From Nephromyces sp. MM_2019 (Eukaryota > Apicomplexa > Aconoidasida > Nephromycida), in assembly GCA_015657535.1 (NCBI GenBank), contig JADHZB010001687.1:25391-89390 (forward strand): DNA of 64,000 nt, written 5' to 3'. The notes beneath the pieces were generated by a model. The model saw only the letters and a program-made list of their open reading frames with translations. It ran no database searches and was not told the origin of the DNA. Below are positions 3,001 through 64,000 of the stretch, one piece after another. The first letter of the stretch is position 1. Each line of letters opens with the position of its first letter. A program made the position numbers and the translations under genes.

Positions 3001-4602
3001 GCTTATAGTTTTTGTTCATTTTGAAGTGCTACTAAAAGTAATGCTATTGAGAACTTCGCGTAATAAAAATTCATTATATCTAAATCGACATGATTACTTT
3101 ATACACCTTAGGATAATAATTTGCTATGAAAGAATTCCGTTACTGCCAGCACAGCCGGAAGTATGGGGTTTTCTCGTTATCGCACACTTAGTGCCCAGCA
3201 GAAGCATGCACACACTTCGCTCGAAGTCTAATGAGAAAAGTCGTTACACTCATGAAGTAGCAACGCAGACACATGCTTATCCTAAGCAAAGTGATCCATC
3301 AAAAGACATGAACGTAGAATGAAGGTAATTAGCAATCACATTTATCGCAAGTTAGAGTGAATGTAATTAGCAATCGTAGTGTTTTACATAAAAAAATCTA
3401 GTTATCCTTATGGAACTGCTGTTATCCCTATGGAAATGCCATTATCCTTATAAACTATTCACATAACTAGAATTTATGCTACGGTAAGCTAGCAAATAAC
3501 CTTAACCATGCTGTTACTTTTCACGGAATAATGTAATCTAAGAATGCTGAAGTTTCGCGATACCTTTTGCTTGAAAATCAGCGGCACTATGGAAGCTTCG
3601 GGCAAGACACATCACATCTCTTACTAAATTTACCCTAGGCTCTGACCAGCTGCGTTATCCATTGAAGACCTGGTGCTGACTAGCTTAGGTCTTGAATTCT
3701 TGGCAGATGTTAGATGCAATATTGCTATACCGTTAATATGAGTGCTGAACTACTCCTGGCTATCATTTTTCTTCAATTTAGCAGCGGCGAACATCTTTTT
3801 CTTGTTTTTGCTTTAGTGAATGCCCTTTTTCACGCCTTTCACCATAAAGAAAAACTCCTCCTAGGTATTTTTCTGATTCCTGCGTTTCTTTGAAAACTAG
3901 ATCTTAATTTCTAGAATCATACACGTATACCTAGGAAAATATGTTTATGTACCTTAAAGAAGGTATGCAAATCAACAAGGATGCTATATTTGCCTCCCGC
4001 AGGAGCACCCAAAAGGTTACCGCAATTACGTTCGTGGCAAAACAGTAAAACTACAGAATTGATTTAAGCCTTTTACTGTTAATTTCATGTAGATCGGACA
4101 TTTTCCTATTGCAAGTTGCTCGGGGTATCCACGATGGTAATACAAGCTTACTGTTAAATGTGTACCGGAAATATTCTATTGGCTGCCCCCATTTCAATAG
4201 TCATCAACTTTGTGGGAAAACTTAGGGGCCTAAAAATAAATCCACTGCAAGAGTAGGGATGTGGGCTTGAACGTCTTTCTTTTCGAAGAATCCATTGAAG
4301 CTTCCTGGTATGTCATCATGCAAGGTGAAGGGCTGAGCATGGAATACAACACCATGAGAATGGCAATGCCATGAGCTTCAATTCATTCGGGATGTAGGTG
4401 TAAAGTGTTTAAAGTATCCAAGCAGGCAGGGAGTTACGAATCTGTAGATATTCCCACTACTGCTGGTAATGCGTGTACCTGACTCGCTCTAATTAATTAT
4501 ATATGCTTAAGTGACATCATAAAGCGGAGGCCCACGCATTCCTTCTACTACATTAAATCGTCCCCCACAGTGTACCTCCTGTAATTCCGTCGTCCCTGTA
4601 TA
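1..4602. other. Stretch without a recognised gene
   Basis: No protein family, splice-consistent exon chain or RNA gene was recognised here. The longest open frame (2945-3322, +, 125 codons) does not start with ATG, contains no recognisable motif and has no convincing splice context, so it is not called. The stretch holds a short 20-bp tandem repeat at 3401-3457 and a 16-base direct repeat about 40 bases apart near 3320-3375. The 3' part presumably carries the promoter and 5' UTR of the DPCD gene. Confidence 0.5.
3401..3457. repeat. 20-bp tandem repeat, three units
   Basis: Three consecutive units start at 3401, 3421 and 3441. Each begins with (g/a)ttatcc followed by (t/c)ta; the first two continue tggaa(c/a)tgc and the third diverges after 15 bases. 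The period is exactly 20. Just upstream, taattagcaatc occurs at about 3328 and again about 40 bases later, so the area may be a more decayed version of a longer array. No coding role is apparent. Confidence 0.7.
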
Positions 4603-5830
4603 ATGCTAGCGCGACAAACCTCCCCGGTGAGGATCTGCGTCCTTAAAGATGGAAGGTATCATATGCACACGACTATGGTCAACGGAAATGATGAATTTTT
4701 CGAAGAGTTTGATGCAAGGACTGGCCTCGTCGTTCATCGAATGACACGGCGAAGGACTCTGCTAGGAAAGATGAGCCCTTGGGAAATAGAGGTAGGAGAT
4801 CTAGATGCTGGCAAGCCCAGCGTCGTACTTCAGAACCCATCATCGCACACATGCCCCAGTCACGAGGTTTTATACCCAAATTTCAATGACAACAGCAGAA
4901 CTTCTTTGGGACAAGATAAATCTCCTTTTGAGCAAAGCCAACTGCTTGATAACCTCGCCTTCGCCAAGGGGTACTCAGGACAGAATGCTGCACTCCTTAT
5001 GAGAGAGTCTCCTTCATCACGAAAGCAAACACCTGTCATATCGAGGATAGATACGCCAGACCGATTTGAATGGAGAGTCAGAAACATCCCTCACGATCAG
5101 TTGGAAAATTTCAAGGTAAATATTCTCACGTCAAAGCAAGTGCTCGCTATTTCTACATTGAACAAGAAGTACTATAAGGAGCTGCGCATACCTGATTTGC
5201 ACAGGCAAGGTATAAAATTTGATGCCTCAAGTTTCTCCAGCAAACATGGGAGGGGAACAATAATAATAAGCTACAAGAAACCTACGGAGGTAAGCAAGGA
5301 GTAAACGTACGAAAGGAGCTGCACCATTAGCATAAGTACTACAGTTGAGCTTGAAATAGCAGTCATTTGTGGACACGGGTAATATTAGTAGTATCCTTAG
5401 ATCGGTAATCGTAATAAGGTCAACAGCAGTCGCCGTAGATAGAACATGGGGTTTACTCGCAGTACTACAAGCAATGGGGATTTAGGCAATGCCACGGTAG
5501 ATTTCAAGCTGCAACCGAATGCGCATCGCATAATATAAGTTGGTACATACTTACACGCAGAGCTGTAGGTCATAGCCTCCAGTTCATACTGCATAATCCG
5601 TCAATCATACACAAACACACTCGTGCCTGACAGATGCAAGAGATTTCAAGCTTATACCAGCAGAATACCCGCAATGCGTAAATTTTCGTAAGCTTCGCAG
5701 TGATGATCATTATTCCCTACTCTTTTAGATTCAAAAAGCAGAAAAGGAACTTTTTCATGCCGCAGTAGAGGCACAGCTTCTGACAAGTGAGAAGTTGGAC
5801 TCCCAAGGCACTGATGCTAACCAAGGATAA
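4603..5830 (+). CDS. DPCD: DPCD family protein (cilia/flagella assembly factor)
   Basis: The product is a 262-residue DPCD protein, a family tied to motile cilia and known to associate with the R2TP/RUVBL chaperone machinery that assembles dyneins. Two exons are seen: 4603-5289 and 5729-5830, joined in phase 0 through donor gag|gtaagc and acceptor ttttag|att. Conserved block one is residues 12-66, with the KDGR start and WEIEVGD end. Block two is residues 155-228, with FEWRVRN, NKKYY, IPDL and IIISYKKP. The second exon gives a charged helical tail beginning IQKAEKEL, as in animal DPCD. Residues 67-154 form a low-complexity insertion longer than the matching part of the human protein. The ATG at 4603 has an in-frame stop 19 bases upstream and gives an N-terminus of ordinary length. 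An unspliced 5' exon cannot be excluded. Its presence implies a flagellated stage, probably a microgamete (inference). Confidence 0.93.
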
Positions 5831-13000: not shown

Positions 13001-14025
13001 TTGTATTAACTCAGCAACTAGCAGCCTTTTTCTTCTCATATTCACTCAGCAGATAGCAACCCAGTCACATTCACTCAGCGGCTATCCACACTGCTTATAC
13101 TCTCATGTACTCAGCGACTACAAATATTTTCTCTAATAACAATTGCTAAAGCGTCTATTCCCAGTCCTTTTAGCCTCATACTACCGTGAAGTACTACTAG
13201 AATACTTCTAGCCACACTCCTCATCCACTTGATGCAGCTCAACAAGATATACGCACGCTTTGATATTAGACGAGGCCACACCCTTCCGAGTCTAATAGCA
13301 TCATATCTGTATCAAAAAGAAGCTGCTACATGAAACTCCCCCCTCTCTTCTATAGCGTGTGTGTGATGCTTTTAACTCCCTTTCCTTAAGCCTATCAACT
13401 ACTCAATTCCTGCAGTGATATAAAAGATTGAAATTGCCTTGACTTGAGTTTCACAAAGGAGAAAACTGCCTTTTATGCGGCTCTACCTCTTCTTCTCCTT
13501 TTGAGCTAATTTTTTCCGGTGAGTGTGTATTTCTTCACTTTGATTTCTTCTCTTTAGAAATTCTACATACTACATCTTCACATGATGATGATATAGGAAA
13601 AATCGATATGAATGCTTATTTAGCTATGGTTTCCCTTCTCTTGGGGGGTTATGAATGTTCATCGTCTTATGAGTTAATCTGTTGAGGAAGGGGCAAGTGT
13701 TCATTATGTTTTCCTCTCTGCTTTCTTCAGAGTATCTTGTAGCCTTTTTTGTGGATTTCTCTTCTTCAGTTTCAATATGCCATTTTCACTTTTAGGATGA
13801 TGAAGATAATTTCATCATTTCTTAGGGGCATGTGGATATCCATGCGGGCATTCTCGCTGGTGTGTAGCGCTTGCGCACTCTTCTTCTTGGAAGGGTTTTT
13901 TTGAGTGTTTGGAGGTGTGTGGTGGTGTGTGTGTGTGGAGGTGTGTGTGTGTGGAGGTGAGCTTCTTGAGGTGTGTGTGTGTGAAATTGATTTTCTTGAG
14001 GTGTGTCTGTTTGCTCCTTACAGCG
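13001..14025. other. Intergenic stretch before the NIFK-like gene
   Basis: No gene was recognised. From about 12950 to 13110 a loose motif resembling actcagc(a/g)(g/a)(c/a)tagcaacc recurs. From 13500 onward the plus strand becomes T-rich. At 13909-13992 it is a TG-rich microsatellite (gtgtgtgtggaggt units) ending in a pyrimidine-rich acceptor-like ctccttacag directly before the NIFK-like ATG. This suggests a leader intron or a pyrimidine-rich promoter segment. Confidence 0.5.
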
Positions 14026-16520
14026 ATGGCGCTGCATAAAAAGTCGCTTGCCAAGAAGCCAAAGCAAACTATAGCTTCACCCAAGAAGGTGAAGTCGGAT
14101 AAGTTGTCCAAGGGGGGCTCCAGTATGAAGCTTTCTTCAAAAGCTCTAACGAATAAAGCCGGCAAAGGGGCAAAGGGAGCGCGTTCAAGGTTGGCGCAAA
14201 CGAGTACTGCATTGAATAAGCTTATACCTGAGTCAAAAACTGCGTTAGGAAGCGTGAAAAAAGCCGATTCAGGGAAAAAAAGGATAAAACACTTGAAAAA
14301 GGACAAAAGAATAGATGAAAGTGCTGTAGTTTATCTTGGACACATCCCAGACGGTTTTTTCGAGAAAGAACTACAAACTTTCTTTGCACAGTTTGGTAGT
14401 CTGAAACGAGTTTGCCTGAAGAGAAGTCAAAAGGTGAGTGAGGAATGTGTTGAACAGCATCAAATGATACAGTTTCCACATATTCGGTTAATCTTACTCT
14501 TCTTTGTGTGTGAAAAATACCAAAATTTACCGTTACTTTGCTTCTGCGTAATAATCCTTTTAGAATTTTTTAAAGCCTAGGATTTTAGAGATTACACATG
14601 TTTGTATACCGAGAGATTTTTGTGGCTTGCATATAATTTTATCATTTGTCTCCCTCCCTAGTATATATGCCTTTTTCTGAAGCAGTTTTAAATTTACGAG
14701 AATCTACAATAACTGCAATTTTTATCGTTTTTCCCCCTGTAGAGCTAATTGCGTTGAATTTTTTGAAAAACATTTTTTAGGTTTTTTCAAATTGTGTGTT
14801 TCCTCAACATCTTTTCTCATGAAATTATATTTGCTTAATTTTGTTTCTTTAATGACTTTTTCTGATTGAAAAACCCTTAAAATTATGTTCTGAAACCTTT
14901 AGAATTTGAATTTTGATGAAATTCACTCAGAATTTGCCTTCTTTGCATCGTATTGAAGGCCTGATTGTGTGTTTTCTCGATAATTTCTTGCGAGGAAAAA
15001 TGGTGAATTTGGAGTTATTCTTCCTCTTTAATCTTCTGGCACTATTGGCCACAGAAATGCATCCCCAGTATTGCTCACCCCCTCTCTTTCTTGTGTGCTC
15101 CTGATTTCTTCTGTTTGAAGTTCCTCTTCGCCGAAATGTACTAGAAGATATAGCATAGCCTCTTCCCTAAAGTATTGAAAATTCCCTTTTTTTGTGTGTG
15201 CTGTATACTGCAGACTGGGAATAGCAAAGGATACGCTTTTTTGCAGTTCGAAAACCCAGAAGTTGCCAGGATCGTGGCAAAAACGATGGATAAATACATG
15301 CTCTTTGGGAAGATCTTAGACTGCAAGCTAGTGCCAAGTTCAGAATACAAAGCTGGAATGCTTTTCGTTAGTTTCTTAGATGCTCTTTAACTATGTGATT
15401 TTTTCCAGTTTTGCATAGCTTTAAGCAGTTTATCTTTAGTGAGGAATATGATTTAGTACCAAAAATAATAAATGTGTGTTGTTGAATAATGTTATCCTCC
15501 CTGCGGCCGTTCTTTGCATTTTTTGAAGACCACGTGTGTTTTTCTGGGTTCTTTAATGTGTGTTTCATGAAACTCTTGGGGTGTGTAATACTGAGCTTAA
15601 TTTTCATCTTGAAGGCAAATATTAGTACGGTATTGTCACCATTGCAGTGCATTGGGTGCTTCTAGATGCTTACGTATAGTGCAAATGGCTGTGATGCTTA
15701 GGTTCCTGCCCAGTGTGTATGTTTATGCCTATTTTTTTTATGGGTTTATGCTTCTTACTATGTCATTTAGAGGAGCGTGAAATGCGATAAGTTTTTGGCT
15801 TTTCTCGCAGTTTCTGCTAGCAAATATGCATAAAATCCGCATATGAAATAATCTTTTTACAGACATTCACCATCATTTTTATTTGATATTACGTGGACTC
15901 CGACTCCGTCGTTTTTCGAGTCACCATTGGTTTTTGCGCTTGCCCGTTGCATTATTGTTTTCTGCAAGCCTCATTGGATTTTCATTTAGAGAACTACTAG
16001 ACTTAGTGTGTCCCCTGCAGGATATTCTTCCACACAATTTTTGATGTTTTTTTGCCATAAAACTTACGTATATAATGCTACCAAAAAAATCCATCTTTTA
16101 AAGCTATACCTACACTTTTCTTTTTTCTGATTCCTCTGCATTGACCGTCTCTGAACTTTTTCTCCTGACTATGCATATGCCGTGCTTCCCTGTTCTTTTT
16201 CATATTCATAGGGACAATATAACAAAGCAGATACTCCAAAGAGGAGGTTGAAAGTCGCTACTGAGCAACATAATCGTGAGTTATCAGCAGAGATCGCAGC
16301 GAAGAGGATACTGCGCAGAGCACACAGAAATTCGCGGAAGATCAGGCAGTTGGAGGCGCTTGACATTGACTCTCAGCTCTTAAAGTTTGAAGCTTACAAT
16401 GTAGAAGATGTAGAATTAGCGGGTAAAGTCCTTGGCAAAGAGGGAAAAGTGTTGAAAAAGGACAAGGCCACGACACCTGCAGGAAAGAAAAAGATTAAGG
16501 AGGCGCTGATAAAGCAGTAA
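14026..16520 (+). CDS. NIFK/Nop15-like nucleolar RRM protein
   Basis: This is a 289-residue single-RRM protein of the NIFK (human) / Nop15 (yeast) family, nucleolar factors needed for ITS2 processing and 60S subunit assembly. Exons are 14026-14433, 15214-15366 and 16212-16520, all joined in phase 0 (aag|gtgagt, tgcag|act, ttc|gttagt, atag|gga). Residues 1-98 are a Lys/Ser-rich basic tail. The RRM spans about 101-180, with RNP2 VVYLGHI at 101-107 and RNP1 KGYAFLQF at 141-148. The family hallmark GHIPDGFFEKEL and, later, LFGKILDCKLVP are clear. The C-terminus after the RRM is basic and helical with KRILRRAHRNSRK. An in-frame extension upstream to 13909 exists but translates a TG microsatellite, so the ATG at 14026 is preferred. 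Human NIFK carries an additional Ki-67 FHA-binding tail that is absent here, so Nop15-like is the safer functional label. Confidence 0.93.
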
Positions 16521-22081: not shown

Positions 22082-25000
22082 ATGTGGATAAAAAACATCA
22101 CCAGGTCTATAATCTCCCTGCTTATATATAAGGAAGGATGCACATATTCCGTAATTTCACTAGCTCAATCGTGTTCTTTGGCTATGAGAATTGCCGGTTC
22201 CTACTCTTTTCTCCCTTCCTTCATCCCTAAATTAGCCGTTTTTAGGCAGATTAAACCGCAAAGCGAAGTTTTTGCTCCATTCAGCCGAATATGGACTTAT
22301 CGCAGAATAGTTTTCTTAGCATTTTTCACACTCCTGATAATCACTTCCATTTTCCCCTCAAAATCTTCTGTTTGGAGAACTTCTTTTATCCCTTTCCCTT
22401 CTCAAGAAATTTATAGTTCCGGTGAGAAATTCACCCACCGGTTATGGTTTTCTTCATTTGCTAGTGCCCTGAAAGCACCTCCTACTAACTTAAGGAACTT
22501 CTCTTCAGCACGTAGTTTCGTTTCCTTGCAAAGATGCACACACGCTGAAAGTTATGAAATTGCTGCATTCATGGTGAGAAAACCAACCTTCCAAAAGATC
22601 AACGCATTTCTTAGGAGGAGCAGCGAATTTTGTAGCCTGAAAGGCATGAAAATTCTTCCACCCTCCCTCACACCAGCGTCTTCGCTTCGGGTCGACGATG
22701 CTTTTAGAGCTGATCAAAAAAGTATATTGTTTTTCTCATCATATTCTCTCTTTGCGCCATTTCTTCGCAAAAATCCTATAACTCCACATAAGATTGGTAG
22801 CTATGCTCTACCACATTCTGACGGAATACCAGAGGACGCGAATGAACAGAGCTCCTTGATTCCGTTTAATGATGAAGAAAATGATGCCGACGAAGATGTT
22901 GTGGATGTTTCCACGCAAAGCACTTTACCAGACGAAGGCTGGAAAGTACTTTATGAGAAAAACGTGTATAAAAAACTCATAAAGGCTGGTGAAGGGGGAG
23001 GAAAACCCTCTTATAACTCCAACGTAACGATAGAGTTCAAGATATCGAAGGTTGATGGAACTATGCTAATGGATAACAAGCTACTTAATGTGTCCATGCT
23101 AAATTTTCCTATGGTAAATTTAATTTTTTTACTTAGTATTCAGCGCCGTGAAATCCTGAGATTTTTTGATAGCATTAGAGAGGTTAGCTTGCTTTACGGC
23201 AGAAGCTTATTCAAATGCTTTCACTTGTTCTTACTGTGTTGAATGATGCCATTGAGGAGATGAGCTGAATTTTTTATATATGTTGGTTGTCTTTATGTGT
23301 TTGCTTCTTCATCTTAGCGGCCCTTGTGGTTGGCGTAGTTCACGCATATTCCGGTTTAGCCTGTTGAGTTGATTTCATCCAGTATTTGATTTAGCCTTAA
23401 AAGGCTGGAGTTTTGGATGCTTGTTTTTTTTATCTTAGAAGATGATTATATTTGATAGGCAAGAGCCTAACTACATAGATGAGAAAGGTGTTTTATGGGG
23501 AGGGTTTAGTGAGAAAATCTGCCTTTTGCAGCTTTCTTTAATGTATTTACACTGAATTTCCTGAAAGTATGAATTGGTTGTATTGCATGGAAATTCTGAA
23601 ATGAAATCTCTCATTGTGTGTTGGATTTTTTACTGGCTAGATATAGGTACGATCATGCCATTTTTTTTAGAGTAATTTAGGGTCTTCTTCAGGTAGCTCC
23701 CCACTATTATACCTCTTTGAAGTTTTGGCCCTTTTATGTCACACACTATTGTAAAAGCGTTGGGTAGCCGGATTTTTTGTGTTTTTTTAGCGAGTTTTTT
23801 GTCAATGCGGGTTTGTATTTACCAACTGTGTTTAAGGTTGGTTTATATAGCTAAATACTCACAAAAATAGCACTCACCATGACAAAGCTTAGCTTATACT
23901 GTAAAATTCCTTTCAGACTTTGTTTCTTTTTGATACATGACTTTGCTGATGAACTGAAGAAAGCTAGAGAAATATGCTATAAACTATGTATCATCAAGCT
24001 TTTAAAGTTAAATAGTCCCTTCCAAACAATAGATGCTTGTGCCATATACCGTAGGCCGAGGCATCCGAAGGCATGAAGTTTGCAATCTCAACGATGGAGA
24101 GCTCAGAAGAAGCAGTTTTTATTATCCATCCAGCGTTGCACAAGCTTGGGGGGAAATCTTTCGATGATTTCAGCATTGATACGGCTGAATGGCTACGGTG
24201 TGTGAGTTTCTTACATTATCATACGATTTTTTTTATATAGAAGAAGAGAATTTCTCTTCTTATTGCAGCTAAGCCACTGTGTGTTGATGCTGCTACATAG
24301 AGAATGCTATAATTCTGAAAAGGACGTGGTAAAAAATGTAGTTTTAGAAGTGGAAAGGTTTGAATAATTTCAGGAAGGAATGTGAGATTTGAAGAATCTG
24401 AAAATCCGCAGAGCCAACTCAATTTCAAAGGCTTAAGAGTTGTTACTGAAGATGTGTGTTGCTCACTTTGTAGTAGATGAAGCTGCTGGTACTTGATAAA
24501 ATGCTTTGTGCAATCTTATTCTTACTGGCATACACTTGATAGTTTCTATCTTTTTTGTGTGTGCATCGATTCTAATAAGATTTTCGCAATCTCGCAAAGT
24601 CTTGGTTTCACTGGCGTACAGTTTGTGGTCAGCGTCACAAAGCCATTATGGGGCTTGAACTGATCAGATTTTATGTTGAGAATTTTTTGAAGATTTTTCT
24701 ACAGAAGGCAGCATGAAACTGCTGAATTTATACTTTGCTACTCCCCTTAGTCTCCTATTTATGACCCTTAAAGTAGCAATTTTATTGCAGGATAAGATAG
24801 GATTCTTTCAATTTCTTTATAATTTGTGGCAGTTGCAAGCTAATGAGAATGAAAAATAGCTGATTAAAGCTGCCGAAATAGATACACTATAATTACAAGA
24901 TATATCTTCAAAGATAAATCAAGTTTTTAATTGTTTAAGTATCATAAGGATAGTTTTTTTTTAGAATTTTATACAAATCCTATGAAGCTGCGGAGATTGG

Positions 25001-28000
25001 CAAATGTATCCATTGTTACGTAGATACTCCAGGTAGAAAATTGCACTCACGCAGATACTATAGGTAGTAAATTTCGCTCACACGCACACGCTGGGTAGTA
25101 AATTGCACACACTATTTTTTTTGTTTTCTCTCTTGCTCTCAGCAAAATTTCGGCTTTTTTCCACAAAATACGATTTGGTGGGTGTCTGCCCTGGTTTTTG
25201 CTTATCTTTGACTTTCATAGCTTGCCAAATAGAGCTATATATCGTAACTTATCTACACACTATCTGCTGGTTCCAGAGGCTGAATTTTTGCCTCTTCTTT
25301 TCCTACAGGTTTGAGATAAAATTGTGTGGTTTCATAGGGGCAGACGAAAAGGTAGGAGCTATTGGCCCAGGTATGGACCTATCTTGGATACCTCAATCTG
25401 ACGGTAGCAGTGGTTCTCCCGCTGACATCTCCGACGAGGAGAAAAGGGAAGAATATGCAGACCAAATTGTCAAGGAAACAGAGGTAATTCCTATGAAATT
25501 CTTGATTTTTTTGAATATTTTCAAAAAAGTAAAAATTTATGAATAATCTTCAAAGATATATGCTACTAGTCAAATTATAGCTAAAATGGAAAATGGACAC
25601 GCGCTCAAAATAGAATGTGCATGATCTCTATATGAATTATTCATAGAATCACTACAACTAGCGTTAAATACTCCTACTACAAACACACTTTTGGCTTTTT
25701 ATTTGCAGAAGAATTGAAAATTCTTTTGCTCAATTGCAAGAATTGCTTGGTTTTTATTGAGCGAAATTTTTGCTCGTTTCCATGACGTTTATCCACTTTT
25801 TCAAAGTTTTCGGGGGAACTTAGTCGGTATTATTCCCATAAAAAAGCAAATCACCACTTTTTCTCCCTGGTTCCTCGTTTCCATAATCTTCTCACTCTTC
25901 TCCATCATTTCGTGTTTTTTCTGCTTAAAGCGTTGGCAGAGATGCTATGAAAATATTTTTTTTTTGGGGTAAATCAAAAGGGTTTGGATGAGAATTTGGT
26001 ACAGAGAGGAATTACTTTTACTTGGTGATGCATTTTCAGTGCGATTCACTGCTTTACTCTGAGATAGAAGCAATCAATCTGATAAACTCTAAATTTTGGA
26101 GCAGAAGTACACTAAAAAGCTATTCCTGCTCTATTATGGTTGGAGAGGTTCATTCTGTGTGTTTGTTTGCTTGTTATTGAATTCGTAGTTTGCCATTATT
26201 ATGGTGGATGAATTGATGATTATGCTGTCGGATGAAGACGTAGATTTGTGTGAACTGCCAACGTTTTAATAGCACATTCATGCTTGAATCTGTTTAATTT
26301 TGCCCTGGATAACACACATGCTTGAATCTCTTCGATTCAACCCTTTTTTGTTGAAATTTTTTCAAAGCCCCTTCGCCCGTAGTTTCCTGCTATCTGCTGT
26401 CTCCGAGATCCGCCTCGCCAGCAGCTTTTTCATTTGCTAAAACGCATGCACTTTTCTTTTAAGCTAATGATTATGCTTGTTCTCACTCCTTGAATTGCAG
26501 TTCGCTTCATTTTTGCTCTTTTTGAGACTATTCGTCATCTCATTTCCTCATAATTTATAGGTTTAGTGCGCGAGTACAAAGCTTAAGTTGCAGTAGTCTA
26601 AAGAATACTTTCACATATATTAGGCATAACGCGTATTTCTCTATAAATTTTACTCAAATATTTTTTTTTTCGCCAGCGTGAGATGTCTACCAACCCATCT
26701 TCCCCTTTATGGGAGGATATAAAGCCGGACCTCACCCCGTCTCATGAAGAAAAGCTCGATGGTAAATAGCCCCTCAACTCACCTCCATCCTCCTTCCCCC
26801 CTACAAAATGATGAAGATGATATGCTTAGATACGAATTATTAAATCGTTGATCTACAGGATTTTTTATTCTTCACTGGGAAATTGAAGGGTATTTCTTGT
26901 GATAGATTTACTCTAGGTATTTTACCAAGAAGGCACTAGCGCGGCAATTACTGTTGATCTTGCTTCCCTCACTATAAGCTTTAAAGCAGGAGATAGAAGC
27001 AAAGAGAAATGTCTATTAGACACTAGATATCTTCAGAAGAGAGCATATCTGCAGCACAGTAGCTAGGAATGTAATAGTAAATTTTGTTAAATGTTGAGGG
27101 TTTATCAGCGAGTACTGTTGATTATTGCGATAATGCTTGTGTGTGTAGCTGCCCATTCTTAAGTTCCTCTATTGGGTTTTTGTTGTTGCTAGGGTATCCT
27201 CGGGAATGAGCTACACGCTAGTGTATGTGTGATTTCGATTTCTGTGCTTGCTTAACTTGAATTGAGAGAATAAGAATTCTCCTTGTCCTGCTTTCTTCAC
27301 ATAAATCAACTGCTTGCTTGCAAGTTTTGCTTTTTGATTCTTTTGTTGTAGATGATAGTTTAGTCTTTGAAAAATCTTCCTTTTTTAGCATTTTTTATTT
27401 CAATCTACTCCGTAGCATTTAGATGTAATTTTAAGGAATATTCGTAGGTAAAAATTGAGATTTCGAGGTCTTGCTGCATCTTCAATATCATAATTTTTCC
27501 GCATTTTCTTCACCTTTTAAACTCTTTGTTCATCCAATTAAAGTTGCAGCCCCTTTTAAATTTGATTCCAGTCTTTCATAATACTCGAGGCTACGGCATT
27601 TTCATGAAATCATTGGTAATTCACTTTGTTATGGCAGCTCATTTTCGGAGTACCATTAACTACGGCAAACCTCGAGACCCATCAATAGATGGCTCCAGGG
27701 GTTTCATAGAGTCTTTTTTGAACAACAATGAGGCCTCCAGATTTGGCTACCAACTAGGCGATCGTTTAGAAGGCAGAGGCAAACATTACATATGGCGAGA
27801 GAACCCCTATAGGGTAGAAGTGCTCATCCCAGTAGTTCCAGGAGTAAGAGCTAAGCATGTTTACTGTCATGTAACGAAAGACTCCTTTACACTATCTATC
27901 GGAAGCAAGCCGGTAATTCTATTGCTGGCTTATTTCGTTCGTAGCTATTACTTTTATGTGTTGTTTTAGTGCGTGAAATTGCCAATTTTTTTGTGTGCTG

Positions 28001-30436
28001 TTTTACTACCTAAAATCGCCTATCCTTTCGTGTGCTGTTTAACTACCTAAAATCGACCAATTTTTTCATTTTCAATTTAGGTGTGATTTACTATTCAATA
28101 AACTTTATTTTGTGTGTGTTGGAGATTGTTTTACTCTTTTGTTAAAATTGAAAGATCTCCACTTTTTTTTTTCTTGTCATATTTTTAAAGTGGTGATATT
28201 CGGATTGGGGGTGGGCTGCGATAACGGAAAAAGCTGGGAAATTTGTAGACACCGCTAATCAAGGAGGATCTCTTCAGTGCGAGTGTATGTTAAGATATCG
28301 TCATAGCATGCATTGTAGGTGCTGTAGAAACCCCTTGAGCTAGCAAATTTACAGGATTTTCAGTTGGGTGCTTGTTGGTTGTATTCTCAGGAATATGTTA
28401 GTTTAACTATACTATTGAAGGAAGAGAAATTTCTCTTGTCTTTTTCCTAAGGTTTTCTCGCTGCTTCAAGCGATTCTTTGTTAATTTTATACTCTAAAAA
28501 AAGCGTGTAGATAATAAATTTCCCTCATCTTCTATTGCTAAAGGTTTGCTTAAGCTGACTCGTATTTACAGAGTGTGTTCTGAGAGCTTTAAGTGTTACA
28601 GAGGGGAAATTTTGATGTTTTTATCCATCACCTTCATTTCAATGGAATTTTTTTAAATGACAGTTAAAGCGACTTGGCATTGCAAAAACCAAGTAAATTT
28701 GATCCTTTGCTTCTGCAAGATTTCATGTAAAAGGATGATTAATTTGTGACTTTTTAGCTTGATTAATTGTAATTTAACGTGGTGCTTATTTAAAAATCCA
28801 TTTCTTCTCAATGGTTAGTTTCTCTCTGTGTGTTTCATCAATTTTCAGGTTTTTTTTTCATTTTTATGCTTGTATCGCTTTGATTCTGCAAGGCTGTTGC
28901 AGGGCCAAGTTTTTCCTTCTTCTACTGAATTTGATTCTACTGTAAGTCTTTTCATATAATTGTCCATAAATCAATATGTTAGGTACTTGAAGATGAACTA
29001 ATGGGAACCGTAGATCATATTTCTGGAGTCGTCTGGTCTATGAATGAAGCGGTATGTATGTGAAGAGTCAAAATTTATGTTACTAATAAACACAAATTCA
29101 GCTTTCATTGTAGTAGAAAATTTAGGAATCTTGTTGTGCATGCTCTATTATGTAGGGATAAAATTGAATCGCAAAATAACCGTTTTTTGCTTCTTGAAGA
29201 GTTGCTACAAGAAAAGATTCGTAAAAGAAACGAAGTTGTAGTAATTTATTGTAAAAAATAGACATTTTATGCCGTTTTGATGTGAACACCGCACATTTTC
29301 CATGAAGATGGTGTTCTGTCACGATTGAGTGAGAAGTATGTGGAATTATGCGAGCTAGAACCTTCAAGGTACGGAGGTCGCGCGATCTTTATTTAACTTT
29401 CACACAAGTATTGCGTATGAAAAATCACGTTATGAAGAGATTATGCTTTTTACGCCTAAAAAGTATATATAACTTATCAACAAAAAATACCCATATCTGA
29501 GTTTATGTTTGAGGCTTAGGAAAGGCTTCGATGATTAGTGATTTAAAAGTTATTGAATCGCAAGTATTGCGCCGAAAATATGTAGTAAATTTCAAAATGC
29601 AAATACAAATTAAAGGAGCCACTACTTTTGAAGCTATAGAAGTGGAAAAAGCTTTATTAATGTGAAGCTATAAGTTTTTTTGATGGTATGGGAAGAGGAA
29701 GAGCTGTTAGTTTATAAAAGTGATGCAAAACTCCAGACTGGCCTTTTATTTCTAGGCAGGACGTGGCTAAATGATAAAATTATTAGGGATTATCAAAGAT
29801 TATTTCCTTTTGTTTTGAGTTTTTTGTATCGAATTGTCTATCGTTATCCCCTTGTTTAAAAAATGATCTCACCGTGAGTACCGAATGCCAGAGACTGGAT
29901 GAAGTATCATCTTTGGTTATGCTTCCATTAGTCCCTAGGCTTGAAGTAGATTCCCATGATATCGCCCTTCCCTTCATCTTTAAGAGTGCAATTTTTGTAA
30001 GCTGAACTAATTCAGGGAAACAAAATCGCTGTTTGCAGCTTTCTCACTCTAGTATGAGGAAGTAAGACAAGAATGGCAGATGGGGACTCTTATTTCCAGA
30101 TTTACTGGTTTTTTTTGTAAGCTGCTTAACTGCTTCTTGAAATTTCTTCATTTCAAAGCTTTGATACCTCTAAGCAGGCCACTCGACTCCTCAAACTCTG
30201 ATCATTGAGATTACTACTAGGGTTTTTGCATTGTCTCTTTTGCTCTCCAAAAATTAATTGTACAGGCTACTCGGCATGCTGCCCTTACCAATGAGCAGAT
30301 AACGTCTACATCTCCTTTATTGAAGACAAAAACTGGAGATTCCTTTGAACATTGTGCAGAAAAGCCATGCATATCTGTCATCCTGTACAAGAAGTATAAT
30401 CTTCAACTTTGGGGAAGTGTGTTCAAAGAAATTTAA
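22082..30436 (+). CDS. FKBP-like domain fused to CS (p23/NudC) domain, possibly organelle-targeted
   Basis: Seven exons join with matching phases into 649 residues: 22082-23113, 24055-24197, 25309-25483, 26677-26761, 27638-27912, 28983-29051 and 30266-30436 (TAA). Residues about 286-395 look like an FKBP fold of the non-catalytic second-domain type: KKLIKAGEG, DGTMLMD, GMKFAISTMESSEEAVFIIH, then RFEIKLCGF. Active-site aromatic positions appear unconserved. An acidic linker (SDEEKREEYADQ) follows. Residues about 529-645 match a CS domain: YIW, YRVEVLIPVVPG, VLEDELMG, VVWSMNE, then CISVILYKK and LWGSVF, with about 35 extra residues between the last strands. CS domains of p23, Sgt1 and NudC work with Hsp90 or as chaperones. 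The N-terminal 280 residues hold a hydrophobic stretch at about 76-92 followed by a basic Ser/Thr-rich region, as in recessed bipartite plastid leaders (inference). The start is the first ATG of the open frame; an upstream exon is possible. Confidence 0.86.
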
Positions 30437-32828: not shown

Positions 32829-32901
32829 GGCGGCGTGGCCTAATGGATAAGGCGTTGGTCTTCGGAACCAAAGACTGTGGGTTCGAGTCCCACCGTCGTC
32901 A
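32829..32901 (+). tRNA. tRNA-Arg (anticodon UCG)
   Basis: A full cloverleaf folds without an intron. The acceptor stem GGCGGCG pairs with CGTCGTC (two G-U pairs), the D stem GCCT with AGGC, and the anticodon stem TTGGT with ACCAA around loop CTTCGGA, giving anticodon TCG for CGA codons. The T stem GTGGG/CCCAC encloses TTCGAGT. A 3' A is the likely discriminator. A run of six T at 32917-32922 is a standard RNA polymerase III terminator. The A and B boxes are intact. Confidence 0.97.
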
Positions 32902-34508
32902 TTTCCTGTTTAGTGGTTTTTTCTTTCTTTGTTAAAAGAGCCTTTGCAACGACTCCAAGGTGTTTAACCGAACCTGGAGCCCCATCTTACATTTTAGCCT
33001 TGCAGCAAAGGCCATTACACTTCTCCGTCTCGTTAACTAAATACCAGTACCACCAAGCTCAGCCATTATCGTAAACTGCGGCACTTGCTCATACTACCTG
33101 TAACGCGGACTTGCAGATTGCCTTCTACATTTTACCCTTTAATTCATGGCATTTCACTTTATTCTACCTGGTGGACAATCATTCATAGCATTAATGTTGT
33201 TTTTACCGGTAGATATACGAAATAAAAGGCTATACTATAGCTATTTTATAGCATTCAAGCTTGAAGTACATGCAATCACGAGCCCTCTACTTTTAGGCTT
33301 CCGTACATCGAAATAATAGCCGTGTACGTGGGGATCAGTTGCTAGAGCCGCCGCTGACAGAATTAAGCAACTCTACTACAGTAAAATCTATACTACTCTC
33401 AGTTAGCAAACTCCTTGAGTTCACCCTTTAACAGTTTGATATAGTTTAACCCTTCTTTAAGCCTACGGCCTATTCACACTTGAACAATGCGTGCAACCAA
33501 CGTGCCATCAAACAAGTGTTTGAAGCATGAAAATTCGTACTTATAGTGCTACCAACTGAATTACCCCCACTTTAAAGTCTCCCATTTCCTTTTCACCATA
33601 TTCCACGACATGGTCTCGTCGGTGATTTTTTTACCCAGGCATATTAATCCAATCATAGCCTACTCGCTTAAGGACTTATGTGTCGCCAGTATTTTAACAA
33701 GCGCTAGGTGATGTTAAGCATCTTATACGATCATTTTGGCTCAAGATCAAATCGTACGTGCTACTACGCTGCACAAAACGGTCAGTAAATAAGGGGTCGT
33801 GCGTATATATACATCTGCTTATTCCCTATACCAGTAGTAATATATATTTATTAGTATTAACATGATTTTCACCTTAAAGTAACAATGGTCCGTCTTGATT
33901 GGAATATTCTAATTATCTGAAGTGACGCTGAGTAGAGCCACTTACCATTACTACGAATAAAAATGCAGTGTTGGCAATTTTCTTTAAGTTCAGGAAGACA
34001 GATTAAAAATACTAGATAAACAGTAGTATCCTTAACTGCCTAACACTTACAGACACTAGCGGATCCTTAAATTCTTGTCACCAACACAACAGAAGTCGTT
34101 GAGTTCTGTATAAAGCATGGCAATTGGCGATGCTCAATAGAGAATATCATATGCAGCATAGTTAACTTAAGTGCTACAAGAGGGCGATATTGTATATTAC
34201 GGGCAGAGTTTTCAAGGACATGCGTACATGCGGGGTTATATTTAATGCAAGGTTGCAATGATACCTGGTACATGAAATCCAAGTCACTTCGTAGACATAA
34301 AACCGGCTGTATGTTTGTTTTGCCGCGTATAAAGCATCTAGCGCACCAATGTGCCGATAAAACAATCCCTAAATTTATTGCAAGGATGGAATAACGCGCG
34401 TGACGCTCCGTTGGGAGTGGTACATGCCATGAACTGTGTTTGAAGAGTCACCTGGAGGAAGCGGTCTGCATTGATAAAATTACGAACGACAAAAGCCAGC
34501 AAAAGAGC
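32902..34508. other. Intergenic stretch between two tRNA genes
   Basis: No gene, repeat or RNA structure was recognised beyond the Pol III terminator of tRNA-Arg at its left end. Short open frames on both strands (for example 34067-34541, -) are overlapping, lack motifs, and partly run into the tRNA-Lys gene. Confidence 0.5.
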
Positions 34509-34581
34509 AGCCACCAGCGGGGCTCGAACCCGCGACCACATGGTTAAGAGCCATGCGCTCTACCGACTGAGCTATAGCGGC
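34509..34581 (-). tRNA. tRNA-Lys (anticodon CUU)
   Basis: On the minus strand the acceptor stem GCCGCTA pairs with TGGTGGC, the D stem GCTC with GAGC, and the anticodon stem CATGG with CCATG around loop CTCTTAA, giving anticodon CTT for AAG codons. The T stem GCGGG/CCCGC encloses TTCGAGC, and the discriminator is T. No intron is present. T-rich stretches follow on the minus strand below 34506 and can serve as terminator. Confidence 0.97.
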
Positions 34582-37500
34582 TACGCAGGACTTCTGGCTT
34601 TGTTAAACTATTCATATCTTAAACAAGGTGCGGTGTGTACAATCGAATAATTTTGCCTATTCCATATATCAGTGCCCTCGATATCCCCGATGACTAATTT
34701 AAGACGAAAAATGCAAGCACATTCGAGTCAAAAAGAAAAGTGACAATATAAATTTAGCTTTTTTTATTATTTGACTCTCTTTCCGCACTCAATTTGTGAA
34801 GAAGCTTGCCTTGCCTACCGGAAGATGTGTAGGAAACCACTAATACGCAAACATACTTTCCTGCGTACGCCGCACCAAAGTTCATGCAGTACAGCCTGAC
34901 ATGCTTTCAGGTATATGCTGCACCACACCAGCATGAGCATGGCAATCTTTTCACTCTCCTGAACTGTCCACAATGTTTACCCCGTTTAGCTTTATGAGTT
35001 ACTGCTGCACTCGCATTTGCTTATGCCTTGTACACACTCTCTTATCCCGTTCAGTGAGAGCAATCTCATGTTCACGTTCGCCCAAGGAATTCCTCAAGCG
35101 TTGCTTAATATAAAATAAGGGTGCCTTTTCTATAACATCAGTAAACTTATCTTGCTAATATCCCACTTTGATAGTTCCCACTAGAGGCCTCAATTCACGC
35201 TTGTAGCTTCAGTTTATCCATTTAAGTAAACGAAGAAAAGAGGCGATCATTATAGCGTGCACTATAACGGTCGTGACAAACATCGCATCAGCTATGCAGA
35301 ATGCATAATAAAGGCAGAGTAAATTCATCCTCCGCTTTTGGATACCTTGCGCCTGCACATCTCTCTTGCAGTGCTGCTTATTATAATTATCTGGATAATT
35401 TCACAACTCCTACAAAGCACGCCGTCACAAACCCAAATATGCTTTTCTAGCATTACGCATGCTAAATTTATAGATGGAATACTAGCAGCTCAGGCGATTT
35501 AGCCTTTTACAGGAGTAGAGCCAGACAAAATTTGGGTAAGCTTTGCATCTATGAAGAATTTTCGATAATGCCAAAGCGGGCTATACCCATGAGTGGCTAC
35601 ATAGTGCACTCAATGGCACACGCTATTTTGTTGTGAAATAACACTGTATAATGTTAAATCGCATGGTAGATACTCCTCTTCCATGTTTTCTAGAAACTGC
35701 TGGGCGGTTCATAAATAAGCCAAGTTGCTATAGATAGCTTCATATCAAGGATTGAATTAAGAATTACTGTTTGCACGCAAGTCATATTTTACGGAGAATA
35801 AAGCTAGTAACCCAATTGGCTTAGACAGTAGTGTCATGTTGCTTAAATAATCTTAAAACCAGCTGTAGACGAATTTTTAGGGTCTTTAGGGTTTCTATTC
35901 CCATATATAATGAGCTAATTGTATTAATAACTCGAGACGCATTAAACTCAGTTATACGAGCTACTTCCATTAATATGCTTAATGAGCGCGTCGCATCTCC
36001 TAGATTACTTTGCTTTTCCGTTTGCTCAGTTTTATGATCTGCGCCTAAGTTAGTTTAACGTGCCCTACTTGTCGTAAGATCAGGTAGAAGTGTAGAAATG
36101 TATCATCAAGAAATTTTCTCATTTCACCGTCAGTTGTGTGCCGCCATGGAGGATGACCTAACAAATTCATATGCGGTAATGCAGATACTAAAATATCTTT
36201 CCCGCCCATTCTTGCATATAAATTATGGTCATAATCCATTGGGAGAGTTTTATGGAAGAAAGACTACTCAGTCAATGTTTTTAAGAGCTACAAAAGCTGA
36301 TAAACGACTTTGGCGCCACGCTCACAGAGATAGTTTCAAAATATTGGGCATCCAAAGACTACGGGACCTTGCCGTTTCAGTAAAATTCACAGCATTTTGA
36401 AACGCCAAAGGGTTTCTGCTATAGATTATCGATTCTGCAGGGACAAATATTTGCCGCATCTTCAGAAAAGTCACTGTAGTTTCAATGCCTCATAAAACTT
36501 AAAACCGATGCTGCGCCATAGTTACATGGTGAACAAACCTACTATTCCTGCCCAGCACATACCAAATTGCTGTAGTAGCTAAACAAGATTCCAATTTGTA
36601 ATTTTCTGCACTGAATCTATCATGGTATTTGAAGTTACGCAGAAGACGCTTTTAGGTCTGTAAAAAAAAGCTACATCATCAGTGTACAGATGCTCATATG
36701 GTACATACATAGCGAAAGCATGCATTCCTGAAATCCTCGCTATTCCCGCGGATGTAAGGCTTGTGAGCTGCGCGAAAAATATCTAACTTGAGGGAAGCGA
36801 TGGAAAATTGCAATTATATAATCTTTGTGGCATGCATATATTCTTTTGCTTAATCAAAAACCTTTTTTTATGTACAGCAGCAATTTCATGCTCCTCCCGT
36901 TACTGCAGGGAGCTCATGCTCATAGAATGGAGTTTTCACACCACATGGTGATAAGGAACAAAAAAAATTAATATGGAATCTGACTAGTTTATTGCGGTTG
37001 AACTCTTGCGTTATCGCATGCCTACCCACCCTTTGCTAGTAAGGCGAAGGAAACCTAAAAAAGTACTGCAAATCAATCTCTCCAGATGAAGTTGCTTATG
37101 GAGCGCAACCCTGCTACGCTTGCTTCTTCATATAAACATTCCGTTTGTTTTTAGCCATCATCTACAAAGAGTCGCTAATAGAAAAAAGTAGGATAGCACC
37201 TTGGCCAATAGTTAAACCACGTGCTTCCATTGAGCGAAGTAATCTTCAAAGTAATATTACCTTCAAAGAGCAGCTTTTTGTGATCCAAACTCATCAGGAA
37301 ATACATTCTCAATGTAAAGTATTTGTGGTAGTGTAACAAATTTAGTTCTACCTTCAACGCAGACAACAGCTGCTTTAGAGCCACGCTTTGAAGCAGAAAA
37401 TATAATCTAAATGGGATAATAGCGAAAAATGGTAATTCATTCGCCACCCTTTACCTCATTTGAACAACTCGAAGACTCCAATGTGCTAAATTTTTTTTTG

Positions 37501-42554: not shown

Positions 42555-45500
42555 CTATGCATCGGATGTGGCGATAATAACTACGTCTTCCGGGGAAATA
42601 CTATTGGCGACGAACGGTTGAACAGTCGCATTGGAAAACCCGTTATCTCTCAGCCACATAACCCTAAAAAATATTACAAAAAACTGAAAATTACTTTCAA
42701 AAAACTAAAGTGTGATGAATCAATAGACCCACATGTTACAAAGACGTCATGAGATTTGATCGCTTTATATAAGTAGCTAATGCTGTAGGTGACAAGATGA
42801 TTTATGAGCAGGTACTAAGCCAATGAGGTGAAAACTACCAATTTAAGGATGCACATATCTAGTCTAACCGTGGAGTAAGCAGCCTTATACTATTATCCAG
42901 CACGACAAAACTTTCAGAGGTATCGTAAAAATACCACACACATAGGCGAGCAAAGTCTTTTTTAGGAGGAAGTGATGCAAATAGAAGATGAATATACCCA
43001 TAGAAAAGAAAAAAATTGAAAAAGGCTAGCAACTGAATAAGCAGTGGGCAGCGAGAAATAAGACGCCGACTTAAATTCCATACAAATAAGCTTTTAACAC
43101 ACAAGAAAAGAGAGGGAAATAAGAGTGCCACACACAAGGAGAGAGGGAAATGGTAGCTGCACACACAAACAGGAGTTTCACACACAAGAAGACACACAAA
43201 CTGGAGTTTCACACACAAGCTTATTTGAGCTGCCAACTTTCCATCTAAAAAGCAATAAAATTTAATCAAAGCGCTAAAACTAGACAAAAACCCCTACATA
43301 CCTGCCAAAATCTAAAATTCTCTTCACCATAAGCCCTATCCGCGTTTTATATCCTGCTGCATTGGTGGCCCAGCTGAAAAATATAAAATTCATGAGAAAA
43401 AAATTTAATTAACTGAGGAGAGACTGATGGAAAAAGGAATTTATGCCTTTATCACAACTATAAAAAAAAGTATAACAAAGAGAAAGTTATGAAAGTTCGT
43501 TTATCCCAGGTAATAATTATAGTAATTTTTTACCTGTGTGTGTGAATTCAAATCCCACACACTATATAGTCCTCAACTACGAGAAATGCTCAGTGCTCCC
43601 ATACACGCATGCAATGCAGTCATGATATTTCTCTCATTAAAAAAAAGCTTTCTAGGCATATTCAATGCAAAATAATGTAGTTTGAGCAAGTTAATTACTA
43701 AAGCAATGCCACATCACCAACACACACTCATCCACCAGCTGCTCGAGAAAAGAAAGGTAGACAAAAAAAGTATCAAATATTGATGTATACCCCAAAAATA
43801 AAGCACCAAAAAGCTTTGAAGACTTAAAATATAATAAAACGCAGTTAAACAAGTGTTCAGCATCTAAAATTTAACGGAAATACCTTGACATTGAGATTAG
43901 AAAAAGAAATTCTTCTCTTGAAAAAATCTTCAAAAGATCGCCAAGAAGCTTCAATCCAACATAGTCCTCAAAAGTACAGCTTAAAACAAAAGAAAGAGAG
44001 AGTTTAAGGGCCTAAAACAAAGCATTTCAGGAGGTGAACTTCTCTGCTTTTTCACTGTGCTTTTATCAAGGAAAAACCAAAGTCAATGGCATGTAAAAAT
44101 ACATGATAAACTAAAGCATATATATGCCTTAAATATACTAATTGAAGTAGGATAAGCTACCTGGGAGGCGAAAATCAACGCTTCTTCAACGAATAATAAA
44201 GCGTAAACTGCTCAAATGGATTGGATGAATATCTCAGAAACTCCATTGAAATTTATAAAATAGGGATTGGCACATATTACTGAAAAAAATGCAAGAAAAG
44301 ATGGCATTTATGCGCAGAAAAACGCATTCATTACTCGACATGCAGCTTTTGCACGCTATAATTGGTGCAATAAAGAGAGAAAGGATAGGATAGAATCTAG
44401 GAAGAAAGGAAAATCAAAGAAAAGGCCAAATATAATAGAAAAATAGCAAATTTTATAACTCAAAGCAACAACAGAAAACTCTATCAAAAACAGTAACCTG
44501 CACAACTTCACCACACACACGCACAAACTAACTGAATCATCTAACCTGTGATGACAACAAGTTGCCACGCAAATACTAGCTTTAATATCAGCCCTTCTTG
44601 GAAGCTTAAAACTCTCTCCACTCCTGCACACACCCCCAGGCGATACCACAGCATCCGCGGACACAGTGGATTTCCTCTCTCCCCCCCTTAAACCCTCCTT
44701 CGCCTCATCACCTGAAGAAACATCAGCCAAGCCGCTAACATTTTCAAAGGAAGAAGAAATCACACTCTTCAACGCTAAATCTGTGGCGCTTCCACACAAG
44801 TGTTTAGCAGCTGCGACTAAGTGTGAAACTGGTTTATTACGGAAACTTCTTTCAAAACAATCCAAAGTATGGTTTATATTTGGTCCTCCTCCTCTTGAAA
44901 TTTTACTTAGCAAACTCCACACTGAGCTAACATCTTCTATCGAGCTAATATCAAGTCGGACCCCAACTTCATGGAGCTCTTTGATGAAGCCGGGAATGTG
45001 GGGTCTGAGATCAGAAATAAAATTGCTTTTGGGGGGACAATAATCATTTAAACGCTCTGATTTGCAAAATTAGAGATTTTTTTTCAGTTTGAGATAACAA
45101 ACTTTTATACAAAAAACCAGGTAGTTACTATAATATAAGCATTAAATACTTGAAAAATCTACAATTCTGACAAATTATTGAATATCAAGTTTAGATTGAA
45201 GAGACAGATATTGCTTTATATGACTTAGTCAATTTGGAGGAAAACACACAAACTTTAACCAGACCGCATCTTATTATATCCATAAAAATTAGAATCCATA
45301 AAATCGCTTAAAAAAAAATCCCATTTCTCCAAGCTTTATAAATAAGATGAATGCAGCATCTTCAGTTTGCATAAAGAAAATAAAGAAACTGTGAAAGCTC
45401 TGTAGGAAAATCCGCCTCATTCAGAGGAAACATCAAAAAAATGCGAATTTCAAGCTTTTTTATGGCAAGTCATTTACTAGCAGCTACATTAAAGGCTCTC

Positions 45501-63790: not shown

Positions 63791-64000
63791 CCCCGTGTGT
63801 GTGTTTAACTGTGTGAAAACCCCGTGTGTGTGTTTAACTGTGTGAAAACCCCATGTCTGTGTGTGTAACTTTGTGAAAACCCCGTGTCTGTGTGTGTAAC
63901 TTTGTGAAAACCCCATGTCTGTGTGTGTAACTTTGTGAAAGTCCCGTGTGTGTGTTTAACTGTGTGAAAACCCCATGTCTGTGTGTGTAACTTTGTGAAA
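63791..64000. repeat. 29-31 bp minisatellite in a Ku70 intron
   Basis: About seven tandem units start with cccc followed by (g/a)tgt(c/g)tgtgtgtgt, then (tt)aact(g/t)tgtgaaa. Two forms alternate: a 29-base unit with ttaactgtgtg, and a 31-base unit with gtaactttgtg. Unit starts include 63791, 63820, 63849, 63880 and 63911. The array begins about 75 bases after the donor of Ku70 exon 9 and runs off the end of the window. Confidence 0.92.

Follow-up and report, generated by a model that had tools for sequence, protein, structure and literature searches.

A gene of Nephromyces joining an FKBP-like and a CS domain, with a candidate plastid-targeting leader

The seven-exon gene and its counterpart in the same assembly

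The 64,000-nucleotide stretch of Nephromyces sp. MM_2019 DNA analysed here in its entirety (the window; part of contig JADHZB010001687.1, below C871) carries on its forward strand a gene encoding an FKBP-like domain followed by a CS domain, and a second gene of the same structure lies on contig C1036 of the same assembly. The window gene consists of seven exons joined in phase, with GT-AG borders at all six introns and a product of 649 amino acids without internal stop. The splicing check thereby bore out the phase-matched exons, and the stop codon ending at 30436, that had been proposed in an initial annotation made by a model from the letters alone. The exons are as follows.

22082..23113, forward strand: exon 1, leader (residues 1-285) and first half of the FKBP-like domain, from splicing and hydropathy/composition; homologous exon at C1036:35930-35412, reverse strand
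24055..24197, forward strand: exon 2, middle of the FKBP-like domain; C1036 counterpart also 143 bases, same phases
25309..25483, forward strand: exon 3, end of the FKBP-like domain, then linker with the pattern P-x-M-x-L-x-W-x-P common to both genes
26677..26761, forward strand: exon 4, linker with the pattern S-P-x-W-x-D-I common to both genes; C1036 counterpart also 85 bases
27638..27912, forward strand: exon 5, end of the linker and first strands of the putative NudC-type CS domain, from the profile match to NudC-family chains
28983..29051, forward strand: exon 6, middle of the CS domain; C1036 counterpart also 69 bases
30266..30436, forward strand: exon 7, variable insert, presumed last CS strand (K-P-C-I-S-V-I-L-Y-K-K ... 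L-W-G) and stop codon

The body of the gene is almost certainly coding, since, with stops as frequent as in its introns (6.2% per codon), an open run of 280 codons would arise with a chance of only about 1.7e-8. Exon 1 by itself stays open over 344 codons; the least certain part of the model is its extreme 5' end, with 74 open codons (chance about 0.009). A later acceptor for exon 7, which would drop the insert, was rejected because it does not keep the reading frame. The C-terminal end of this exon is kept between the two genes, yet it lies outside the region matched in the PDB.

Searching the assembly (48.3 Mb, 1127 contigs) with the protein returned nine matches, seven to the gene itself and two on C1036; neither half of the protein matched anything beyond these two contigs. 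The C1036 gene encodes 474 amino acids in seven exons, all six of its introns fall in the same place and phase as those of the window gene, and exons 2, 4 and 6 are equal in length. Recurrence of this structure in a gene whose product is only 34% identical places the gene model beyond chance. The blastp alignment (374 columns, E 4e-74) runs across the FKBP part, the linker and the CS part and leaves the leaders, which differ in length, unaligned. Introns measure 876-1214 bases in the window gene and 64-238 bases in the C1036 gene (those between exons 3 and 7 being 68, 154, 173 and 64 bases), and the latter are so short that separate genes for the FKBP and CS parts would hardly fit. The FKBP-like domain followed by the CS domain is thus a single-gene arrangement conserved between two loci, probably of two genomes, in agreement with the order proposed initially. 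C1036 has a G+C content of 0.309, the window one of 0.381. As judged from a few contigs, the assembly appears to be a mix of two related genomes, one of about 31% G+C with short introns and one of about 38% G+C with long introns. Most likely it holds two related species whose copies of the gene are orthologs, as they are called hereafter; the grounds are set out in the last section.

Domain assignments and the search for relatives

Whether profile methods recognise the two domains depended on the kind of search: single-sequence Pfam scans left FKBP_C below its cut-off and found no CS domain, whereas profiles built from both orthologs matched both. With the whole window protein FKBP_C reached E 0.025 and 15.3 bits against a cut-off of 21.1, and no other family was listed up to E 10; the FKBP part taken alone reached E 0.0013 and 19.4 bits, and the remaining FKBP_C score over all single-sequence scans was 18.5 bits. 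Pfam CS gave no match to the whole protein, to the CS part alone or to the ortholog, and six-frame searches of the genome with Pfam CS and FKBP_C picked up neither gene. The window protein by itself found wheat FKBP as its best PDB sequence match (2.5e-8, domains summed) and NUDCD2 at 0.87 with the whole protein and at 0.1 with the CS part.

All 32 PDB matches of the two-ortholog FKBP-part profile at E<=10 are FKBPs or peptidyl-prolyl isomerases by name, and 12 of them fall below 1e-3. The best is again wheat FKBP, at 5.9e-17 for three domains summed and 2.5e-5 for the best single domain among the three printed alignments. At the same threshold the five matches of the CS-part profile all belong to the NudC family (best 1.3e-4, others 0.026-0.096), and the reversed CS-part sequences used as a control matched no PDB entry. 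With the whole-protein profile, 24 PDB matches at E<=1 comprised 18 FKBP or peptidyl-prolyl isomerase chains, five NudC chains that do not overlap the FKBP matches, and one unrelated chain that falls in the linker. By its PDB matches, then, the CS domain appears to be NudC-type; of the initially proposed p23/NudC-like character the NudC part stands, and a p23-type domain was rejected.

When the two orthologs were scanned with Pfam, no TPR family came up at E values to 10, a range in which HMMER filters drop most matches above about 0.1. We therefore rejected membership among the TPR immunophilin co-chaperones of the FKBP51/52 type, in line with the earlier proposal that a CS domain here takes the place of their TPR. 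Several other family matches lie far below their cut-offs and were set aside: Myb in the linker of one of the two orthologs (E 0.0087, 16.7 bits against 22.9), DUF4567 (0.087), and, for the FKBP part in NCBIfam, BamJ (0.0029, 17.9 bits against 100) and GldI (0.028).

The FKBP-like domain is degenerate, as the initial annotation had it. We take the pocket of FKBP12 to be formed by Tyr26, Phe36, Asp37, Trp59, Tyr82 and Phe99, and transferred these positions through the FKBP-part profile alignment to FKBP51. The window protein has Phe319, Leu329, Met330, Met351, Lys374 and Phe393 there, and the ortholog Phe148, Leu158, Ile159, Met180, Asn203 and Phe222. Because neither ortholog retains Asp37, Trp59 or Tyr82, residues of the isomerase and FK506 pocket, it is unlikely that the domain isomerises proline or binds FK506, and the earlier suggestion of a foldase becomes doubtful. 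The conservation of the domain argues instead for a role in binding a substrate or a partner.

Relatives were sought among 5.8 billion proteins. Residues 280-649 gave 3270 candidates, none at E<=1e-3; residues 285-649 gave 3009, none at E<=10; and the two-ortholog alignment gave 6763, none at E<=1. This search reaches only relatives that share short exact words, in a collection whose eukaryotic share is unclear, and its outcome does not imply absence elsewhere. A survey of the literature on FKBPs with a CS domain, the apicoplast, the periplastid compartment and alveolates, mostly at the level of abstracts, met no description of a protein of this kind. A relative under another name in Toxoplasma or Plasmodium is possible; a table in PMC4794898 names a Plasmodium 'CS domain protein, putative' (PF3D7_0813200), a candidate by its name.

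Among known systems, members of the NudC/NUDCD family (2o30, nuclear movement protein; 1wfi, nuclear distribution gene C homolog; 2rh0, NUDCD2) resemble the present protein over the first 65-80 or so residues of the CS sequence. The window protein differs from them in showing no sign of the NudC N-terminal region, in carrying an insert before the presumed last strand, and in placing the CS domain behind an FKBP domain and a putative targeting leader. The large FKBP co-chaperones (FKBP51/52, wheat FKBP) are alike in the sequence of the FKBP domain and supply its best PDB matches, and degenerate FK domains are known among them; here, however, there is a single FK domain with a leader, and a CS domain stands where no TPR was found. 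Sgt1 and p23 are likewise chaperone helpers with a CS domain, that of Sgt1 being reported in PMC12570473 to bind Hsp90, whereas the present profile matches NudC rather than p23 or Sgt1 and neither TPR nor SGS was found. Multi-domain immunophilin fusions also occur in Apicomplexa, namely the FKBP-TPR-cyclophilin proteins (FCBP, e.g. TgFCBP57.3); according to PMC2713222 these have a TPR and a cyclophilin instead of a CS domain, and both of their isomerase domains are active.

Leader, plastid setting and proposed role

As judged by hydropathy and composition, the leader of the window protein comprises a hydrophobic stretch at about residues 75-94, a basic Ser/Thr-rich region (94-246) and an acidic one (247-285), and the hydrophobic and basic parts described initially are therefore seen. 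The strongest hydrophobic segment of the protein is 76-94 (Kyte-Doolittle 2.0 over 19 residues), with a weaker one at 10-28 (1.28). In the ortholog a signal peptide-like hydrophobic run (residues 5-17) stands at the N-terminus and is followed by a K/R-rich stretch. Its residues 27-106 hold 14 K/R to 5 D/E, compared with 42 to 54 in the mature part (p 0.016); the corresponding figures for window residues 94-246 are 21 to 8, compared with 42 to 56 (p 0.005). When the mature parts were scanned in windows of 80 residues, 289 and 293 in number, every window stayed below the net charge of the leader of the same protein. DXS, which we take to be a plastid enzyme by its pathway, served as a positive control: its leader in the same assembly (C1019) has the same layout, with 14 K/R to 2 D/E.

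By hydropathy and composition, the ortholog thus has a bipartite leader and the window protein a recessed hydrophobic signal, both of apicoplast type. Toxoplasma PPP1, CDC48Ap and Der1Ap are set apart from the FKBP-CS protein by their apparently different domains. Their likeness lies in the targeting signal, since recessed hydrophobic segments, at a depth in PPP1 (residues 86-106) similar to that in the window protein, are reported in PMC3228799, and such signals also in PMC6115763; the parallel drawn initially is well founded to this extent. For the ortholog, a leader with signal peptide-like and plastid-like features is supported by its DXS-like layout, which also favours the plastid-type leader proposed earlier. 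No cytosolic ortholog starting after residue 100 was found, the sole ortholog beginning with the signal peptide-like run. Plastid targeting is likely on these features, and by extension the window protein would reside in the plastid.

The assembly offers a setting for such a protein. An apicomplexan source fits its 64 AP2-domain matches, of which 44 exceed the cut-off, and IspG and DXS speak for an isoprenoid pathway in a plastid. The Hsp90 gene at C179:18500-24500 encodes a protein that starts with a signal-peptide-like leader and matches chloroplast HSP90-5 best in the PDB (E 1.6e-69), likely a plastid Hsp90. This chloroplast-type Hsp90 with a leader is the basis for linking the FKBP-CS protein to Hsp90, a link that is only circumstantial.

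We give about even weight to the view that the protein is an apicoplast holdase or co-chaperone, that is, a plastid-targeted, non-catalytic folding helper. The nuclear-encoded protein would enter the secretory route by its hydrophobic signal, and the basic transit-like stretch would pass it on to the relict plastid, two steps that the leaders support. There the FKBP-like domain, its isomerase pocket apparently lost, could serve as a substrate- or partner-binding module, while the NudC-type CS domain might hold clients, dock on a chaperone of the plastid, with the plastid-type Hsp90 as the likeliest partner, or do both. These domain roles are drawn by analogy with what NudC and immunophilin co-chaperones do. 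A more specific version appears quite unlikely as it stands: a chaperone particular to complex red plastids, placed in the periplastid compartment and handing unfolded precursors from an outer translocon, resembling that of endoplasmic reticulum (ER)-associated degradation, to the inner import machinery. That space, which is what remains of the algal cytosol, would suit a protein whose two domains are of eukaryotic type; PMC9548191 reports FKBP genes in cryptophyte nucleomorphs, with functions associated with the plastid. If the protein is indeed a plastid chaperone, it adds the combination of an FKBP domain with a NudC-type CS domain, and provides a concrete candidate for the factor that handles precursors within a multi-membrane plastid.

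Several observations weigh against the plastid co-chaperone. The NudC matches extend over no more than roughly the first 80 of the 130 positions in the profile, the last CS strand rests on conservation between two orthologs, an AlphaFold model of the exon-5 piece was of low confidence (pLDDT, the model's per-residue confidence, of 52) and was not used, and the reversed-sequence control covered the CS part only. The leader composition tests rest on two proteins and were chosen after the leaders had been seen, and the hydrophobic segment of the window protein, some 75 residues in, is possibly a signal anchor or the sign of a misplaced 5' end. LytB/IspH gave no candidate in the assembly. Moreover, IspG, DXS and the plastid-type Hsp90 lie on stretches of about 28-34% G+C, that is, in the genome of the ortholog, and no copy of any of the three was found for the window's 38% G+C genome: DXS as a query returned the same place only, and the C179 Hsp90 recovered, apart from itself, the other Hsp90 loci, with identities of 28-44%. 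Hsp90 pieces of unassigned subtype lie on C692 and C1059, and a plastid Hsp90 of the 38% genome could be among them. Pfam CS and FKBP_C family matches likewise fall on low-G+C stretches only, and the 38% genome may be partly assembled or poorly detected. Since plastid genes are seen in the low-G+C genome only, possession of a plastid by the window's species is argued from its relative.

Two other readings of the protein deserve weight. The same protein might stay in the secretory system, as a chaperone of the ER or one membrane-anchored in the ER or Golgi, the basic stretch being a linker and the hydrophobic segment a transmembrane anchor. That segment is indeed internal and long enough to span a membrane, and on C979 the assembly also encodes an Hsp90, by eye of ER type, that begins with a signal peptide-like sequence and lacks a transit-like stretch. 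We nevertheless consider this unlikely, given the short N-terminal hydrophobic run and DXS-like charge pattern of the ortholog and the C-termini of the two proteins, FKEI and FLKS, neither of which is an ER-retention tail. Somewhat less probable still is an FKBP domain that works as a proline isomerase with an unusual pocket; FKBP homology is kept, as are one pocket phenylalanine (F393/F222) and an aromatic residue at the Tyr26 position (F319/F148), but Met330/Ile159, Met351/Met180 and Lys374/Asn203 (window/ortholog) now occupy the positions of Asp37, Trp59 and Tyr82.

Neighbouring genes and the two genomes

To compare the surroundings of the two loci, 1101 open reading frames (ORFs) of 35 codons or more, taken from the window and from the 10 kb upstream of it, were matched against C1036. 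Eighteen of them matched at E<=1e-4 (19 rows), some being opposite-strand readings of one place. The shared order comprises an RRM/NIFK-like ORF (by eye), the FKBP-CS gene, a tRNA pair that in C1036 is inverted as a block, TRM13 and a further ORF, at the following window positions.

13810-15387, forward strand: RRM/NIFK-like ORFs, identified by eye only; syntenic in C1036; 13810-14580 without a significant Pfam match
32829-32901, forward strand: tRNA-Arg(tcg), adjoining the FKBP-CS gene
34507-34582, reverse strand: tRNA-Lys(ctt), adjoining the FKBP-CS gene
44356-45069, reverse strand: piece of a TRM13 tRNA methyltransferase (Pfam E 2e-9); syntenic in C1036
42558-42704 and 48668-49762, reverse strand: syntenic ORFs beside TRM13 on the same strand, which may belong to its gene
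56087-56482: ORF in the shared order

These neighbours, together with the gaps in G+C content and intron length and a doubled cytosolic Hsp90, are why we regard the C1036 gene as the ortholog in a second species. Cytosolic-type Hsp90 occurs once on C349 (G+C about 0.32; best PDB matches human HSP90) and once on C819 (G+C about 0.38-0.40; MEEVD tail), the two being 66% identical over the compared segment. Both copies of the FKBP-CS gene do sit in one assembly, as paralogs within a single organism would. Such paralogy is distinctly improbable, however, in view of the 0.309 and 0.381 G+C, the several-fold shorter introns of C1036, neighbours that are for the most part shared, the tRNA pair among them, and the pair of cytosolic-type Hsp90 genes on stretches of differing G+C; were it true, the conclusions on domains and architecture would stand and only the word "ortholog" would change. 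It is still less plausible, to the point of being highly improbable, that two head-to-tail genes, one FKBP-like and one NudC-like, were wrongly joined. The long introns of the window would allow this, but the ortholog keeps all seven exons in the same phases across short introns, the linker exon 4 has the same length in both, and neither half of the protein was matched outside C871 and C1036.

Upstream in the window, on the forward strand, 4585-5304 encodes a DPCD family protein (E 1.8e-39). DPCD is cilium-linked, and no counterpart of the window gene was matched in C1036. At the other end, a 31/60-base tandem array (63798-64000, score 346) reaches the last base of the window, which is also the end of the contig.

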